Assembly (NCBI GenBank): GCA_016192135.1
Contig: JACPUR010000010.1
Location: 1 to 33,292 of the forward strand
Length of the DNA stretch: 33,292 nucleotides
Direction of reading: 5' to 3'
Source of the DNA: Candidatus Tectomicrobia bacterium
GTDB lineage: Bacteria > UBA8248
Numbering within the stretch: the stretch's first letter is position 1; each line of letters begins with the position of its first letter. Under the pieces are notes generated by a model. It had not been told where the DNA came from. It searched no databases and saw only the letters and a program-made list of their open reading frames with translations. The translations under genes and the position numbers were made by a program. Shown here piece by piece: positions 3,627 to 17,987 of this stretch.

Positions 3627-3765
3627 TCATTTTGCGCTATTTTCGTATTTTCCTGCCTCCGGTTCATGTTACTTTTTATTTACGTCTTAAAATGGGATGG
3701 GAAGGGGGGAGGCTCCCGGAGCCTCCATCCGTCCCGGAAAAAATATACAGAGGGGAGGAAACGCC

Positions 3766-4440
3766 ATGAGACGCGTCATTGCCGCCACTTTCACCGCCGC
3801 CGGCTTCCTGCTCGCCGCAGGCGCCGCCCAGGCCCAGCCGGTCCAGAGGCCGGGCACGCCCCAGGGGCCTCAGGCCCGGCTGGCCTGCAACAACGTCAAG
3901 GACCCGGGCCAGCGCGGGGCCTGCATCGCCAAGGCCTGCGCCCCCGTGCCCGCTCCCTTGAAGAAAGCCTGCATCGACGGGACAGGCCCCTTCGCCAGCA
4001 AACCCCCCGTGAAGCCTCCGGTCAAGCCCGTCGTGGGCAAGCCGCCCCTGAAGCCGCCCGTCCCGAACCCGGCCGCCGCCCGGTGGGCCTGCAACAACAT
4101 CAAGGACCCGAGACAGCGCGGCGCCTGCATCGCCAAGGCCTGCGCCCCCGTGCCGCCTGCCGTGAAGCAGACTTGCCTCTCGGGCACCGGCTCCTTCGCC
4201 GGCAGGCCGCCCGTGAAGCCGCCGGTCAAGCCCGTCGTGGGCAAGCCGCCCCTGAAGCCCCCGGTCGGCAAGCCCAACGCCGCCCTGCTGAACCAGAAGA
4301 GGTCGCAGCTCACCAGCCTGCGCAACGAGGTGCTCCGGCTCTGCCAGCAGGTTTATGACGGCAAGGCCGAGGCCGACTGCATCGCCGGCGCCTTCCCGCC
4401 GATCCCCCGGGCGCTGCCCTTGAAGAAGCCCGCGAACTAG
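3766..4440 (+). CDS. Secreted cysteine-repeat protein, two 68-residue repeats
   Basis: 224 residues, no recognised family. MRRVIAATFTAAGFLLAAG followed by AAQAQ is a Sec signal peptide. The mature part has two repeats starting at 3883 and 4087 (204 bp apart), each with C-x11-C-x4-C-x10-C followed by a proline/lysine linker (PPVKPPVKPVVGKPPLKPPV). A C-terminal region has one more C-x11-C pair around LCQQVYDG. The ATG at 3766 has GGGGAGG at 3752-3758 with 7-bp spacing; the open frame runs back to 3697 but that would bury the signal peptide. The gene has its own CRP-like site and terminator, so it is monocistronic. It is a paralogue of the gene at 4716. The linker resembles cell-wall or envelope-spanning Pro/Lys stretches; function unknown. 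Confidence 0.8.
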   Translation: MRRVIAATFTAAGFLLAAGAAQAQPVQRPGTPQGPQARLACNNVKDPGQRGACIAKACAPVPAPLKKACIDGTGPFASKPPVKPPVKPVVGKPPLKPPVPNPAAARWACNNIKDPRQRGACIAKACAPVPPAVKQTCLSGTGSFAGRPPVKPPVKPVVGKPPLKPPVGKPNAALLNQKRSQLTSLRNEVLRLCQQVYDGKAEADCIAGAFPPIPRALPLKKPAN

Positions 4441-4462
4441 CACAGCCACAAGAAGCAGGACG

Positions 4463-4499
4463 AAAACCGCCCTCTGGGTTTCCGGGGGGCGGTTTTTTT
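4463..4499 (+). terminator. Rho-independent terminator after the first cysteine-repeat gene
   Basis: AACCGCCC (4465-4472) pairs with GGGCGGTT (4487-4494), 14-nt loop, followed by a T run. It lies 25 bp past the stop. Confidence 0.85.
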
Positions 4500-4575
4500 C
4501 CTCTCGCCCCATGAAATCACTATAAATTCTTCAAAAGATTTGGCCGCCCTGAAATTTCATCCTGAGAACAATCGG

Positions 4576-4589
4576 GTGACTCATGTCAC
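4576..4589. promoter_or_regulatory. CRP/FNR-type palindrome upstream of the second cysteine-repeat gene
   Basis: GTGACTCATGTCAC, a perfect inverted repeat matching GTGA-N6-TCAC, extended on the right by A (TCACA). It is followed by a weak promoter candidate, TTCAGA (4605-4610), 17 bp, TATGCT (4628-4633), which would place the palindrome near -58 to -61, the position used by class I CRP-dependent promoters. Confidence 0.5.
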
Positions 4590-4715
4590 AATTTATCTAA
4601 AAATTTCAGAATGAACCCACTTTCGCATATGCTATCGTAAATGAATCCGGACTAAGGAAACGGCGATGCGTGCGGCATCCTTCCTTTTGCTCCGGCCCAT
4701 GGGGAGGGTCAGGTC

Positions 4716-5591
4716 ATGAAACGCTGTACCGCCGCCATTGTGGGTTTCGCAGGCCTCCTGATGCTAGTCTCGGATGTCTTGGCCCAGGTTCCCCCACCGC
4801 TTGGCCCGCCGCCGAGCCCGGCCCAGATCGCCGCCCGCCGGGCCTGCAACGCCCAGCCCGCGGGCCAGGCCCGCACCAACTGCATCAATGCCGCCTGCGC
4901 CGGCGTCTCGACTCCCTTCCGCGGCGCCTGCATCAGCGGCATCGCCATGTTCGCCAGCGCCCCGTCCGTGCCGACCAACGTGGCCCAGCGCCGGGCCTGC
5001 AACAACGTGCCCCCGGCCAACCGCGGAGCCTGCATCAATAGCGCCTGCGGCCCCGTGGCGCCCCAGTTCCGCCAGGCCTGCCTCGCGGGCGCCGGCCCCT
5101 ACGCGGCCGGGCCCACGCCCCCGGGCGGGCCCACCAACGTGGCCCAGCGCCGGGCCTGCAACAACGTGCCTCCGGCCAGCCGCGGAGCCTGCATCAACTC
5201 GGCCTGCGGCCCCGTGGCCCCCCAGTTCCGCCAGGCCTGCCTCGCGGGCGCCGGCCCCTACGCGGCCGGCCCCACGCCCCCGGGCGCGCCCACGAACGTG
5301 GCCCAGCGCCGGGCCTGCAACAACGTGCCCCCGGCCAACCGCCAGGCCTGCATCAACTCGGCCTGCGGCCCCGTGGCGCCCCAGTTCCGCCAGGCCTGCC
5401 TCGCGGGAGCCGGCCCCTACGCGGCCGGGCCCACGCCCCCGGGCGGGCTCCAGCAGCTGAACACCCTGCGGAGCAGCATCTCCAGCCAGCGCAGCCGGGC
5501 CCTCGCTCTCTGCCGGCAGCTCTATGACGGCGCGCAGGAGCAGGCCTGCATCCGCGGCCTCTTCCCGCCCGCACCCGCCCCGGCCAACTAG
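4716..5591 (+). CDS. Secreted cysteine-repeat protein, four repeats
   Basis: 291 residues with a Sec signal peptide (hydrophobic 6-22, cleavage near VLAQ). One divergent repeat (about 4815-4973) precedes three near-identical 53-residue repeats. Each has C-x10-C-x4-C-x10-C (x11 in the first) with RRACNNVPPANR, ACINSACGPV and FRQACLAGAGPYAAG, then a PTPPG linker. The C-terminus (ALCRQLYDGAQEQACI) matches the C-terminus of the paralogue at 3766, so both share signal, repeats and a C-terminal C-x11-C module. ATG 4716 has GGAGGG at 4703-4708 with 7-bp spacing. The even number of cysteines and periplasmic export suggest disulfide-bonded helical hairpins; this is inference. Function unknown. Confidence 0.8.
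   Translation: MKRCTAAIVGFAGLLMLVSDVLAQVPPPLGPPPSPAQIAARRACNAQPAGQARTNCINAACAGVSTPFRGACISGIAMFASAPSVPTNVAQRRACNNVPPANRGACINSACGPVAPQFRQACLAGAGPYAAGPTPPGGPTNVAQRRACNNVPPASRGACINSACGPVAPQFRQACLAGAGPYAAGPTPPGAPTNVAQRRACNNVPPANRQACINSACGPVAPQFRQACLAGAGPYAAGPTPPGGLQQLNTLRSSISSQRSRALALCRQLYDGAQEQACIRGLFPPAPAPAN
4974..5450 (+). repeat. Three in-frame 159-bp tandem repeats inside the cysteine-repeat gene
   Basis: Units start at 4974, 5133 and 5292, exactly 159 bp apart, and differ at only a few bases. The near identity at third codon positions points to recent duplication or gene conversion. Copy number is likely to vary between strains. Confidence 0.9.
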
Positions 5592-6143: not shown

Positions 6144-7547
6144 TTACTCCGCCATTTTCTCCTCCCCCACCTCCATCCCGAACTGCCCGGCGAGGTGGCC
6201 GAAGAGCTTGCCGGCGGCGTCGTTCCCCATCCAGCCGCGCGAGGTGGCGAGGTCGAGGGCCTGGCCCATCCGGAGGAGCGCACCCGAGAGCTTCTCGGTG
6301 TCGCGCACGGAGATCTCAGGGAGGACAGGCCTCGCCCCCGCGCGGAGCGCCTCGGGCGGGAGGGCCCCCGCGCGGTGGGCCTCCTCCAATTGTTTGTCCG
6401 CCATCTGCTGGAGCATGTGGCGCACGGTGCGCTGGCGGCGCGTCATCTTCTTGAAGGCGGGGAGCTCCATGCTCTCGGCCGAGGCGCGGTTCACGTCCTC
6501 CCCCTGGGCGAACCAGTGGGAGGGCACCCCCGCGCCCCCGAGCAGGAGGCCGCGCATGAGCTTGGCGATGCCCTGCGCCCCGCTCTCCCCGCCCCGGAGG
6601 TCGGGGGTGACGGCCCGCCACTCCTCCTTCTCGTTGTGCACCCGCACGCTGGAGGGCCTCGGCGCCGCGCCGTTCTGGGCGAGCCATTCGGCGACGCGCT
6701 CGGGCCCCGCGCCCTTGAGCGTCACGTCGTAGATGAAGGAGTTCTGGAGGCGGGCGCGCTCGGCCGCGTCGAAGATGAAGCGCTCGTAGATGTCGATCCA
6801 GTCGATGGCGGCGAGGAGGTCGGAGCTGCCCCGCGGGGCGTCGCTCGCCTTGTTGATCTGGAAGAGAAACGCCTCGCCGTCCCCGAAGCGCTCACGCTCC
6901 CGCTGGGCGGCCGCGCCCAGGTATTCGCGGGGATCTCCGCCGAGCACGGTGCGGAGCCGCTTGCCCGAGCGCGAGGGCCCGAGGCCCCCCTCGGGCTTGA
7001 GCACGACGCCGATGGGCAGGGCGCAGTTGTCCGGGTCGGGCACCACCTCCTCGATCCAGCGCGGGGAGACGTAGCCCAGCCGCACCCGGCCCTCGAAGCG
7101 CGAGACGGCGGCGGGCAGCAGGAGCTCCCCGAAGATGGCCAGCTCCGAGACCAGCCGCTCGACGCGCAGGTCGAGCTGGTTCACCGGGTCGCCCCAGAAG
7201 CCCTGGACGCAGGCCAGGGCGCGCGGGTCCTCGGACTGCCAGGAGACGCCCTCCCCCACCACGTGGTCGGTGACGATCTCGATGAGGCGCTGGCCCACGA
7301 GGTTGGTGAGCCAGAGCTCGTAGGCGAGCCGCTGCATCCGCTCGTGCGTGGCGGGGCTCACCCCCGAACGCCCGCCCGAGAGGCTCCGCCAGACCCGCTC
7401 GTCCGGGTCCAGCCCTCCGCTCAAGAGCCGGCGGAAATCCGTCTTCGGGCGGCGATAGCCGAGGTTCGAGGGCGCGCCATTGGGCTTCGAGGGCGCCCCC
7501 TCGCTCTTGAGGCGTACTCTTTTGGAGCCTGCCGCTTTCCGTGCCAT
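6144..7547 (-). CDS. Phage portal protein
   Basis: 467 residues. Forms the dodecameric portal ring through which phage DNA enters the capsid. After a basic, low-complexity N-terminus (about 1-35), the protein shows the portal pattern: ERMQRLAYELWLTNLVGQRL, IVTDHVVGEGVSWQ, FWGDPVNQLDLRVERLVSE, FGELLLPAAV, LGYVSPRWIEEVVPDPDN, then a late stem-like region (VPSHWFAQGEDVNRAS) and a Met/Gln-rich helical end. The ATG at 7547 has AGGAGGG 8 bp upstream and lies 2 bp after the nuclease ORF, so the two are coupled. The longer open frame to 8279 is shadow of the nuclease gene. No frameshifts or stops, so the gene is intact. Gene order terminase then portal is the phage norm. Confidence 0.85.
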   Translation of the reverse strand: MARKAAGSKRVRLKSEGAPSKPNGAPSNLGYRRPKTDFRRLLSGGLDPDERVWRSLSGGRSGVSPATHERMQRLAYELWLTNLVGQRLIEIVTDHVVGEGVSWQSEDPRALACVQGFWGDPVNQLDLRVERLVSELAIFGELLLPAAVSRFEGRVRLGYVSPRWIEEVVPDPDNCALPIGVVLKPEGGLGPSRSGKRLRTVLGGDPREYLGAAAQRERERFGDGEAFLFQINKASDAPRGSSDLLAAIDWIDIYERFIFDAAERARLQNSFIYDVTLKGAGPERVAEWLAQNGAAPRPSSVRVHNEKEEWRAVTPDLRGGESGAQGIAKLMRGLLLGGAGVPSHWFAQGEDVNRASAESMELPAFKKMTRRQRTVRHMLQQMADKQLEEAHRAGALPPEALRAGARPVLPEISVRDTEKLSGALLRMGQALDLATSRGWMGNDAAGKLFGHLAGQFGMEVGEEKMAE

Positions 7548-7549
7548 CC

Positions 7550-8221
7550 CTAATCCCTCCTGAAGAGGCGCCGCGCGCCTTCCGTCCCTCCCGGGCCTCC
7601 CGCGCCGGCCGGAGGAGCGGGGAGGGTGGTGCCCCCCGCGTCGGGGGCGAGGATGCCCTCCCCCTCGGCGAGCTCCTCGGCCAGCTTGGCGAAGGCGCAG
7701 GCGAAGCCGTAGTGGTTCTCGTTCCGCTCGTAGAGGAGCGGGCGCTCGCCCGTCCCCCGGCGGCTCTTGCGCAGGTTCATGAGCTGGCCCTCGACCGAGG
7801 CCAGCAGGGCCTCCTCCGCCTCGTTCCGGGGCCGGGGCCAGCGCACCGGAGGCGTCTCGCGGTGGAACTCCTCGACGAGGAGGTCGAGGAGTTCCTCGCG
7901 GCTCAGGCGCACGTGGCGGCGCGCCACCTGGAGGAAGGAGACCTCCTTCACCCCCATCGCGCCCCCGGTGTGGCGCCAGATGAAGGCGCCGCCGGGCAGG
8001 AGGTCGTGCACGGCGCGGGCGGCCTGGGTGTGGGGCCCCCCGTCGATCACCGCGCCCTCGACGCCCAGGCGGTCGAAGACGAGGCGGCAGCGCTCGACCA
8101 GCCGCTCGACGGGCGGGGCCTCGAAGTGCACCCAGCGCGCGCCGCCGTCCCGCACGCGCTCGCGCACGGCGATGGCGCAGCGGTCCCCCGTGTCGATGCC
8201 GCAGAAGCGGGGGGCGGTCAT
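7550..8221 (-). CDS. Terminase large subunit, separate C-terminal nuclease domain
   Basis: 223 residues. Resembles the RNase-H-fold nuclease half of large terminases, which cuts concatemeric phage DNA during packaging. FCGIDTGDRCAIAV (Asp10) fits the first catalytic strand and AVIDGGPHTQAARA (Asp60) the second. A NENHYGFACAFAKLAEEL helix near 165-182 sits where the third metal-binding acid is expected, but no aspartate is obvious there. It has its own ATG with GGAAGG 7 bp upstream; the frame upstream reaches a stop within 16 codons, so it is not joined to the ATPase ORF. The last quarter is proline/glycine-rich. The ATPase half is the next gene upstream, 323 bp away. Confidence 0.7.
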   Translation of the reverse strand: MTAPRFCGIDTGDRCAIAVRERVRDGGARWVHFEAPPVERLVERCRLVFDRLGVEGAVIDGGPHTQAARAVHDLLPGGAFIWRHTGGAMGVKEVSFLQVARRHVRLSREELLDLLVEEFHRETPPVRWPRPRNEAEEALLASVEGQLMNLRKSRRGTGERPLLYERNENHYGFACAFAKLAEELAEGEGILAPDAGGTTLPAPPAGAGGPGGTEGARRLFRRD

Positions 8222-8245
8222 CGCACGGCCTTCCAGGATTCCGCA

Positions 8246-8267
8246 GGGGCGGTTCGCGAACCGCCCC
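8246..8267. repeat. Palindromic intergenic repeat (GGGGCG...CGCCCC family)
   Basis: A perfect 22-bp palindrome (arms GGGGCGGTTCG and CGAACCGCCCC). A near-identical copy is at 21225-21246 and two relatives are at 17224-17290. It sits inside the gap that splits the terminase. Confidence 0.8.
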
Positions 8268-8387
8268 TACGAACGTCATTCGGTGTCATCACGCTCCTCC
8301 TGGGCCATTCAGAATCGCCTGTCACCCATGCGCCCGGTCTACCCTGTTACCTATGTGCCCGGTTCGGGTCCCCGCTTTTCCCCTCCC

Positions 8388-8467
8388 CCTCCGGGGGAGG
8401 GTGGGGTGGGGGAGGGCCGCAGGTGGTTTTCCCTCCCCCCGTCCCCCTCCCGGAGGGAGGGGGAGAG
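8388..8467. repeat. CCCTCCC/GGGAGGG palindromic dispersed repeat
   Basis: A C-rich then G-rich, strongly self-complementary element. Its last 25 bp (8443-8467, core CCCTCCCGGAGGGAGGG) occur identically at 14570-14594. With the element at 8246 it accounts for much of the 323-bp gap 8222-8544 between the two terminase ORFs. I see no gene in that gap. Confidence 0.7.
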
Positions 8468-8544
8468 GCCCGCCATCGGCTGGCCGCAGCCGGAGAAGGA
8501 GAAAAGACGGCGCCAGGCACCCGGCGTGAAGCGGAGATTCGAAC

Positions 8545-9627
8545 TCACGCCGGCACCTCCTCGAGCCAGCAGGGCGCGTCGTCCCGCAGGCGGCGGAAGA
8601 GCGCCCGGGTCAGGGGTTGCATCTCGCCCGCGTCGGGCATGGCGAGGGAGGAGCAGCGGAACCTGGCGCGCTCCCCGGGCAGGCGGGCCGCCTCCCACTT
8701 GGCGGCGACCCGCTCCAGCCCGATGGCGGGGACGGCGAGCTGGGAGAGGCGGTAGCTGCGCTCTCCTCCGGACTCGCCGGGGGCGGCGGCGGCCCAGCGG
8801 CCGCCCCGGGGGGAGAGGGCCGCCCCGCAGCCCGGGCAGGCGAGGAGGAGCCGGCCCTCCTCCTCCTTCAGGACCCCCGGCCACTCCTCCTCGAGCGCCC
8901 ACTCCTTGCCGCAGCCGAGGCAGGGGACGAGCCAGCGGCGCTGGTCCCCGCGCAGGTACATGGCGTGGATGCCCTCGCCGGGCATGCGGCCCACCGCCAG
9001 GTTGACGGTCAGGGCGAGGCGGGAGGCGTCCAGGCGGTCCTCGGACCACTTGAGGTTCCCGGGCGGAAGGTCGTCCACCTCGTCCCGGATGAGGAGGTCG
9101 AGCGGAAGGGAGATGGCGTTGCCGATGTCCCGGAGGCCCAGGACGTAGAGGAAGCGGGAGCCGTCCACCCGGGGGAACTCGAGCAGGCCCTTGGGGGAGG
9201 CCCCCTTCCAGCACCCCTCCCGCATGGCCCGGGCGAGCTTCGAGCCCCGGAGGAGGGGCCGGACGCGGGTCGCGTCGAAGCGGTCGGCGAAGTCCTGGTC
9301 CGGGAGGAAGTAGCCCACGTTCAGGCGGCGGACGGCGGCGGCGTAGAGCGCCAGCCCGATGGCCAGGGTGGTGAGGCCCACCTGGGCGCCCTTGAGGACG
9401 CTCACCGTCCGGCCCGGGAGGCCCAGGCGGAGGATGCCGTCCAGGTGGGCGGCGATCTCCCGGAGGGGCTCCCGGCCCCGGAAGGTGAAGCCCCTTTCCC
9501 CGGCCCGGATCTCCTCCTTCAGGAAGGCGCCCAGCGGGGGAGCCTCGGCTCCGAAAGGGGCGTCCCCTTGTAAAATCTGCCCCAGAGCTGGGTCTTTTTT
9601 TCTAGGATGACCCATTCTTTCCCGCAC
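8545..9627 (-). CDS. Terminase large subunit, GpA-like ATPase part
   Basis: 360 residues. The packaging motor ATPase of tailed phages. Walker-A-like KGAQVGLTT at 79-87 follows the GpA form, YFLPDQDFADRF follows it, and Walker B LLIRDEVDD is at 178-186 with the catalytic acid pair. Two Cys pairs (CLGC at 236-239, CPGC at 264-267) form the zinc knuckle of GpA terminases. The ORF ends after CWLEEVPA, close to where the nuclease domain should begin; that domain is a separate ORF at 7550-8221. The GTG at 9627 has GGGGGAGG 6 bp upstream; an ATG at 9615 has no such site. A shared phage-type promoter lies just upstream (9670-9734). Confidence 0.8.
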   Translation of the reverse strand: MRERMGHPRKKDPALGQILQGDAPFGAEAPPLGAFLKEEIRAGERGFTFRGREPLREIAAHLDGILRLGLPGRTVSVLKGAQVGLTTLAIGLALYAAAVRRLNVGYFLPDQDFADRFDATRVRPLLRGSKLARAMREGCWKGASPKGLLEFPRVDGSRFLYVLGLRDIGNAISLPLDLLIRDEVDDLPPGNLKWSEDRLDASRLALTVNLAVGRMPGEGIHAMYLRGDQRRWLVPCLGCGKEWALEEEWPGVLKEEEGRLLLACPGCGAALSPRGGRWAAAAPGESGGERSYRLSQLAVPAIGLERVAAKWEAARLPGERARFRCSSLAMPDAGEMQPLTRALFRRLRDDAPCWLEEVPA

Positions 9628-17971: not shown

Positions 17972-17987
17972 TGTGATTTGGGTCACA
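17972..17987. promoter_or_regulatory. Perfect CRP-consensus palindrome in the leader of the holin-like gene
   Basis: TGTGATTTGGGTCACA matches TGTGA-N6-TCACA exactly. It lies between the predicted start of promoter C (about 18014) and the ribosome binding site, so a bound protein would block rather than activate this transcript. It could instead serve a plus-strand promoter. Confidence 0.5.

Follow-up and report, generated by a model that had tools for sequence, protein, structure and literature searches.

Two adjacent, co-directed genes of an uncultured soil/groundwater bacterium from a Candidatus Tectomicrobia genus, here called P1 and P2, encode paralogous members of a real, well-defined exported cysteine-repeat family that is new to the libraries searched and, judged by sequence, is restricted to that one genus within the genomes searched. 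The grammar of the family is clear, with one hairpin brick of 12–13 residues used at several spacings and in copy numbers that differ between species. Our preferred reading, held tentatively and at a little under even confidence, is that of a genus-specific family of stapled helical hairpins, which would serve as a durable extracytoplasmic scaffold or bind multivalently to an anionic polymer of the envelope or the extracellular space, and would be made when a CRP signal is on. Throughout, the window is the whole 33,292-nucleotide stretch of DNA analysed, G000 is the genome that contains it, and G001 and G002 are two genus mates.

P1 and P2 are exported proteins built from cysteine repeats

Codon usage backs both open reading frames as genes, and both contain the signal peptides, the two (P1) or four (P2) repeats and the Pro-rich linkers that an earlier note, made from the sequence alone, had claimed for them (Table 1). 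Its C-terminal C-x11-C module around L-C-x-Q-x-Y-D-G is likewise present in the two proteins, whose paralogy is borne out by 40% identity over 186 residues (E 1e-27). The gaps between successive cysteines read 11-4-10 / 11-4-10 / 11 in P1 and 11-4-10, then 10-4-10 three times, then 11 in P2; none of 20,000 residue shuffles attained the observed number of C-x10/11-C pairs, and none attained that of full units. The 53-residue unit given in the earlier note applies to P2, which advances in steps of 159 bp, but not to P1, where the repeat spans 68 residues because the Lys/Pro linker is longer. P2 repeats 2–4 share 150 of 160 bases with each other (94%), and this near-identity in DNA indicates that the array was recently expanded or homogenised.

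Table 1. Features of the P1 and P2 loci, in window coordinates.
Feature	Position	Strand	Remarks
CRP-type palindrome GTGATCCAGATCAC upstream of P1	3613..3626	+	Exact GTGA-N6-TCAC, conserved before homologues
P1 extended -10, TGT TACTTT, 43 bp after palindrome	3667..3675	+	TGnTA at offset 43
P1, exported protein, 224 aa, two A-type repeats	3766..4440	+	G002 orthologue at same place
P1 signal peptide	3766..3834	+	Cleavage expected after AQA, residue 23; assigned by eye
P1 repeat 1, C-x11-C-x4-C-x10-C	3871..4002	+	
P1 repeat 2	4075..4206	+	
P1 C-terminal helical-hairpin module, C-x11-C	4285..4437	+	Profile A4, E 7e-25
Terminator-like hairpin AACCGCCC...GGGCGGTT plus T run, after P1	4465..4499	+	14-base loop, beyond the limit of the hairpin scan; read directly
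CRP-type palindrome GTGACTCATGTCAC upstream of P2	4576..4589	+	
P2 extended -10, TGC TATCGT, 43 bp after palindrome	4630..4638	+	
P2, exported protein, 291 aa, four A-type repeats	4716..5591	+	Orthologues in G001 and G002
P2 signal peptide	4716..4784	+	Cleavage expected after VLA, residue 23; assigned by eye
P2 repeat 1	4830..4961	+	Most divergent of the P2 repeats
P2 repeat 2	4983..5111	+	
P2 repeat 3	5142..5270	+	
P2 repeat 4	5301..5429	+	Structure predicted
P2 C-terminal helical-hairpin module, C-x11-C	5445..5588	+	Profile A4, E 5e-28; helices predicted
Terminator-like GC-rich hairpin plus T run, after P2	5618..5649	+	14-pair hairpin, listed on the - strand by the scan; T run on + read directly

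A half-unit underlies all paralogues

Further members of the family clarify how the repeats are put together; the earlier note had missed a third paralogue in G000, the half-unit division of the repeats and the common upstream site. Repeat profile A1 gave weak matches at the end of contig C22 and at the start of contig C18 of G000, probably two parts of one gene, a third paralogue, split where the assembly met repeats. This gene encodes a signal peptide and 72–75 residue repeats of six cysteines each, in which the spacers between pairs measure 10 or 13 residues and every turn pair is still x10/11; it ends in GQLNSLRGQLNNIRAQAQRLCGQMPPQERAACVRSLYPPAPPSN, a C-terminal module of the P1/P2 type (profile A4, E 1e-21). 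This B-type paralogue carries many more acidic residues than P1 and P2. In G001, B-type pieces lie on contigs C443 and C103, and a paralogue with a single repeat lies on C404.

Nearly every unit in all of these proteins reduces to the half-unit C-x4/5-P-x2-[RK]-x2-C, 12–13 residues long and exemplified by CNNVPPANRGAC, CGPVAPQFRQAC, CNNVKDPGQRGAC, CGLLPPPERGLC, CNRQPNPQAREAC, CPRVAPAQRDDC and CGQMPPQERAAC. The gap within a turn pair is constant at 10 or 11 residues across the paralogues, whereas successive pairs are set apart by 4 residues in A-type repeats, by 10 or 13 in B-type repeats and by 15 in the C404 paralogue, so that the near-symmetric repeat is best described as two half-units in tandem. 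The C-terminal C-x11-C module keeps the half-unit spacing, but lacks the Pro in P1 and P2. Among the matches listed for G000, a DNA pattern of the half-unit clusters only at the window's contig C10 and at the C22/C18 loci.

Predicted structure of the repeats

An AlphaFold2 model of P2 repeat 4 with the C-terminal module, built from a shallow alignment of 18 sequences, reached a pLDDT of 83.7 and placed helices at residues 4–12, 15–26, 31–39, 53–78 and 82–91 of the modelled fragment. Judged by their place in the sequence, cysteines 10, 21, 26 and 37 sit on the first three of these helices, with both turns flanked by a cysteine on either side, and the final two helices, those of the C-terminal module, bear cysteines 75 and 87. 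In this prediction the Pro turn falls inside the x10/11 stretch and C-x4-C is part of a helix. The model thus supports helical hairpins, for which structure prediction had been proposed as a check, and of the suggested two helices joined by disulfides the pairing of helices by cysteines stands, but with three short helices per repeat rather than two. For the full mature P2 (alignment of 4 sequences, likewise shallow; pLDDT 70.8, pTM 0.25), the three-helix pattern recurs four times, the linkers are the least confident parts (mostly pLDDT <50) and there is no confident packing between beads. The repeats are accordingly predicted to be three-helix beads on a string, joined by Pro-rich linkers.

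Each gene is preceded by a CRP-type site at a fixed distance from an extended -10

Three copies of GTGA-N6-TCAC occur in the window, against 0.18 expected, and two of them lie directly upstream of P1 and P2. Upstream DNA could be read for eight homologues from three genomes, and every one of them has a CRP-type site, six times as an exact match and twice with one mismatch, and always within 153 bp of the start; shuffles averaged 0.32 sites, with a maximum of four. In 5/5 A-type genes the palindrome is followed by an extended -10, TGnTAnnnT, whose hexamer starts at a spacing of exactly 43 bp. With transcription taken to start 7 bp past this hexamer, the palindrome is centred near -62.5. This corresponds to the class I position of CRP at lac-type promoters (about -61.5) and, at the level of sequence, a GTGA-N6-TCAC-type site held at a fixed distance gives the P1 and P2 sites the features of that class.

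With its own promoter-type site and its own terminator-like hairpin, each gene looks like an independent transcription unit. Across G000, the pattern GTGAYNNNNRTCAC occurs 17 times, compared with 2 occurrences of the reversed control, and one CRP-family regulator, with cNMP-binding and Crp HTH domains, was detected near 101,058 of contig C37, a count based on the single Pfam model PF13545. Site and geometry together suggest that the family is under shared CRP-type activation, in which a CRP-family regulator would activate the own promoter of each gene from the class I position. Such apparent common control offers a handle on function in an uncultured phylum.

The third exact palindrome of the window (17973–17986) lies directly upstream of a small ORF on the - strand and about 380 bp before a glycine-zipper lipoprotein gene on the + strand. 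Elsewhere in G000, four intergenic palindromes (C4:52181, C19:107394, C15:34728 and C37:33089; loci L058, L066, L063 and L070) precede genes that were read from their translations as PAS/GAF sensor kinases, as a response regulator and as a fliL-fliM flagellar block; these may belong to a signalling and motility regulon.

Distribution and evolution

Profiles found the family in 3/3 genomes of the genus. A peptide-pattern scan of 84,980 species, with one genome per species, matched only the two genus mates; profile A6 gave no match in the remaining 15 genomes of the taxonomic family, these being also all the others of the phylum that were sampled, and there was no credible match in 368 further genomes, leaving the genus mates as the only carriers in a 386-genome sample. 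One match in genome G091 (E 3e-4) lay in a frame with seven stops and was rejected as chance. A horizontal or phage origin was also rejected, as viral contigs, plasmids and phages contained no relatives.

Within the genus, copy number differs between species: P1 has two repeats in the window and one in G002, and P2 has four in the window, compared with at least six in the P2-like gene of G001. The latter (L029, 2267–2515) opens in one reading frame (MRRIVAATMF...) and is read in another from roughly repeat 2 onward; this single break is due either to misassembly or to a genuine frameshift. P1 and P2 have a dN/dS of 0.6–0.7 in comparisons with the window and of 0.45 when the genus mates are compared with each other, and the ATPase next to them has 0.22, which indicates weak sequence constraint on P1 and P2 outside the framework.

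These values, the restriction to one genus, the near-identical tandem copies in P2 and the frame break in G001 would all suit a dispensable, fast-evolving repeat protein without a specific role that persists through drift and the expansion of its repeats. Such an explanation is unlikely, however, since other species retain all framework cysteines, the C-terminal module, the 43-bp promoter geometry and the synteny, and each genome has several paralogues.

Genomic neighbourhood

P1 and P2 lie between genes for an NMT1-type ABC transporter and a remnant of phage portal and terminase genes. G002 shows the same gene order as the window, from the ABC transporter through P1, P2 and the portal/terminase genes to a BMP-type binding protein, and in G001 the P2-like gene follows the same ABC transporter. 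None of the relatives has an assigned function.

Within the window, the remnant (6147–9615, - strand) consists of a phage portal protein (phrog_10963, E 7e-39), an unnamed protein of 223 aa and a short gpA-type terminase large subunit of 356 aa, with no other head or tail genes alongside; the same three-gene block occupies the same place in G002 (L032, 829–4170), and it is possibly a domesticated packaging remnant. Small exported coiled-coil proteins rich in Gln, Leu and Asn are encoded beside the ABC transporter in G002 (L034, 3567–4004) and on contig C34 of G000 (L002, 1160–1693). A DNA match between the latter and P1 was set aside, being confined to signal-peptide coding similarity with an otherwise unrelated exported coiled-coil protein.

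Oxidation state and possible roles

In the mechanism that we favour, P1 and P2 would be exported through Sec and lose their signal peptides, after which the two cysteines flanking each Pro turn would form a disulfide outside the cytoplasm and staple two helices together. Two such hairpins with a common middle helix would make up the 44-residue repeat, predicted as three helices, and the whole protein would consist of stiff helical beads strung on flexible basic Pro-rich linkers and closed by the C-terminal hairpin module. The even number of cysteines in both mature chains (10 in P1, 18 in P2) and the constant turn gaps were counted in favour of disulfide-stapled hairpins. Both mature proteins are also strongly basic, with a pI of about 10 (32 basic and 7 acidic residues in P1, 21 and 2 in P2), and would therefore be suited to binding anionic envelope or extracellular polymers. 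Neither DsbB (PF02600) nor VKOR (PF07884) was found in G000, which is 97% complete, while some control genomes matched each model; a different oxidant or free thiols have therefore to be considered, and P1 and P2 offer a small system in which to study how disulfides form in a lineage without detected DsbB or VKOR.

The strong positive charge would also fit a modular precursor of cationic hairpin peptides, cut in its Pro-rich linkers to release hairpins that act on other microbes. The best PDB fold match, although not significant (E 5.4), is the Tk-hefu peptide, which we take to be an α-hairpinin-type scaffold. By analogy, a signal peptide, tandem cysteine modules, linkers, a C-terminal domain and variable copy number are all found in α-hairpinin precursors (PMC7191063). 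This reading nevertheless appears improbable, considering that the cysteine pattern is not C-x3-C twice, that no export, protease or immunity gene adjoins P1 and P2, and that the B-type paralogue is much more acidic.

If the cysteines instead stayed reduced, the proteins could act as a periplasmic thiol metal binder or redox buffer for soft metals such as copper or mercury, a role in line with the 10 and 18 cysteines of the mature chains and with the failure to find DsbB or VKOR. We regard it as very unlikely: the cysteines are widely spaced (10–11), both chains lack His as well as CxC or CC clusters, pairing across a turn fits disulfides, and no metal-resistance or metal-transport genes were recognised next to P1 and P2.

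Comparison with known systems

As the earlier note had surmised in recognising no described bacterial family, P1 and P2 gave nothing significant in Pfam, NCBIfam, PHROGs, PDB by sequence, PDB by fold or viral folds; the profile search that it had proposed for the repeats matched no known domain significantly in Pfam or NCBIfam, and the literature on Tectomicrobia and cysteine-rich exported proteins, or on bacterial helical-hairpin repeats, yielded no description of the family. A PHROG match to P2 (phrog_31785, unknown function, E 0.004 over 27 residues) and the Foldseek matches (E above 4) were judged to be chance.

The suggested similarity in plan to CHCH proteins and their twin CX9C motifs extends to four cysteines, helices and even spacing. 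In the mitochondrial twin CX9C proteins, however, a single helix carries each CX9C and the motifs are separated by the turn, whereas P1 and P2 are predicted to reverse this, with a turn inside each C-x10/11-C, a helical C-x4-C and three helices, and their gaps are 10/11-4-10 instead of C-x9-C twice. CHCH-like two-helix hairpins, with each C-x10-C on one helix and pairs C1–C4 and C2–C3, would account for the superficial symmetry around a short middle but are almost certainly the wrong description, given the Pro-Pro or Asp-Pro halfway along the x10/11 stretch and the lack of any CHCH Pfam match to P1 or P2 at E up to 10.

The nearest Pfam model is that of the trefoil domain (PF00088), which was best for 6/18 repeats with an E of 0.024 for a single repeat, below the curated cut-off; full-length P2 scored 8.1 bits against a cut-off of 21. 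The match arises because the local motif C-x-V-P-P-x-x-R-x-x-C, followed by a further Cys, resembles a P-type domain. Trefoil domains have six cysteines that include an adjacent pair, and a compact fold with no helical array; P1 and P2 have four cysteines per repeat and lack both the six-cysteine set and the adjacent CC. The PsiF repeat of E. coli (PF07769, periplasmic), which we take to be an exported tandem repeat with two cysteines each in the arrangement C-N ... R ... C-[LI], is a lead only; its cysteines are spaced more widely than those of P1 and P2, and PF07769 was not among the Pfam matches at E up to 10.

The closest architectural analogues are the precursors of plant α-hairpinins (EcAMP1, Tk-AMP-X and MiAMP2), although no tool used detected sequence similarity to them. 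P1 and P2 share their plan of a signal peptide, tandem helix modules with paired cysteines, linkers and a C-terminal domain in variable copy number, the plant precursors containing 5, 6 or 7 modules, a number that varies between genomes (PMC7191063). In EcAMP1 the cysteines at positions 7, 11, 25 and 29 form C-x3-C twice, with bonds 7–29 and 11–25, whereas P1 and P2 have one Cys on each outer helix and C-x4-C on the middle one instead of C-x3-C on two helices; because of this difference in cysteine pattern, we speak of likeness and not of membership. Extending the analogy, the stapled hairpin C-x4/5-P-x2-[RK]-x2-C could conceivably, if with rather low probability, be an undescribed bacterial counterpart of the α-hairpinin, oxidised without DsbB or VKOR and used as a covalent building block for exported polymers or hairpin-peptide precursors.
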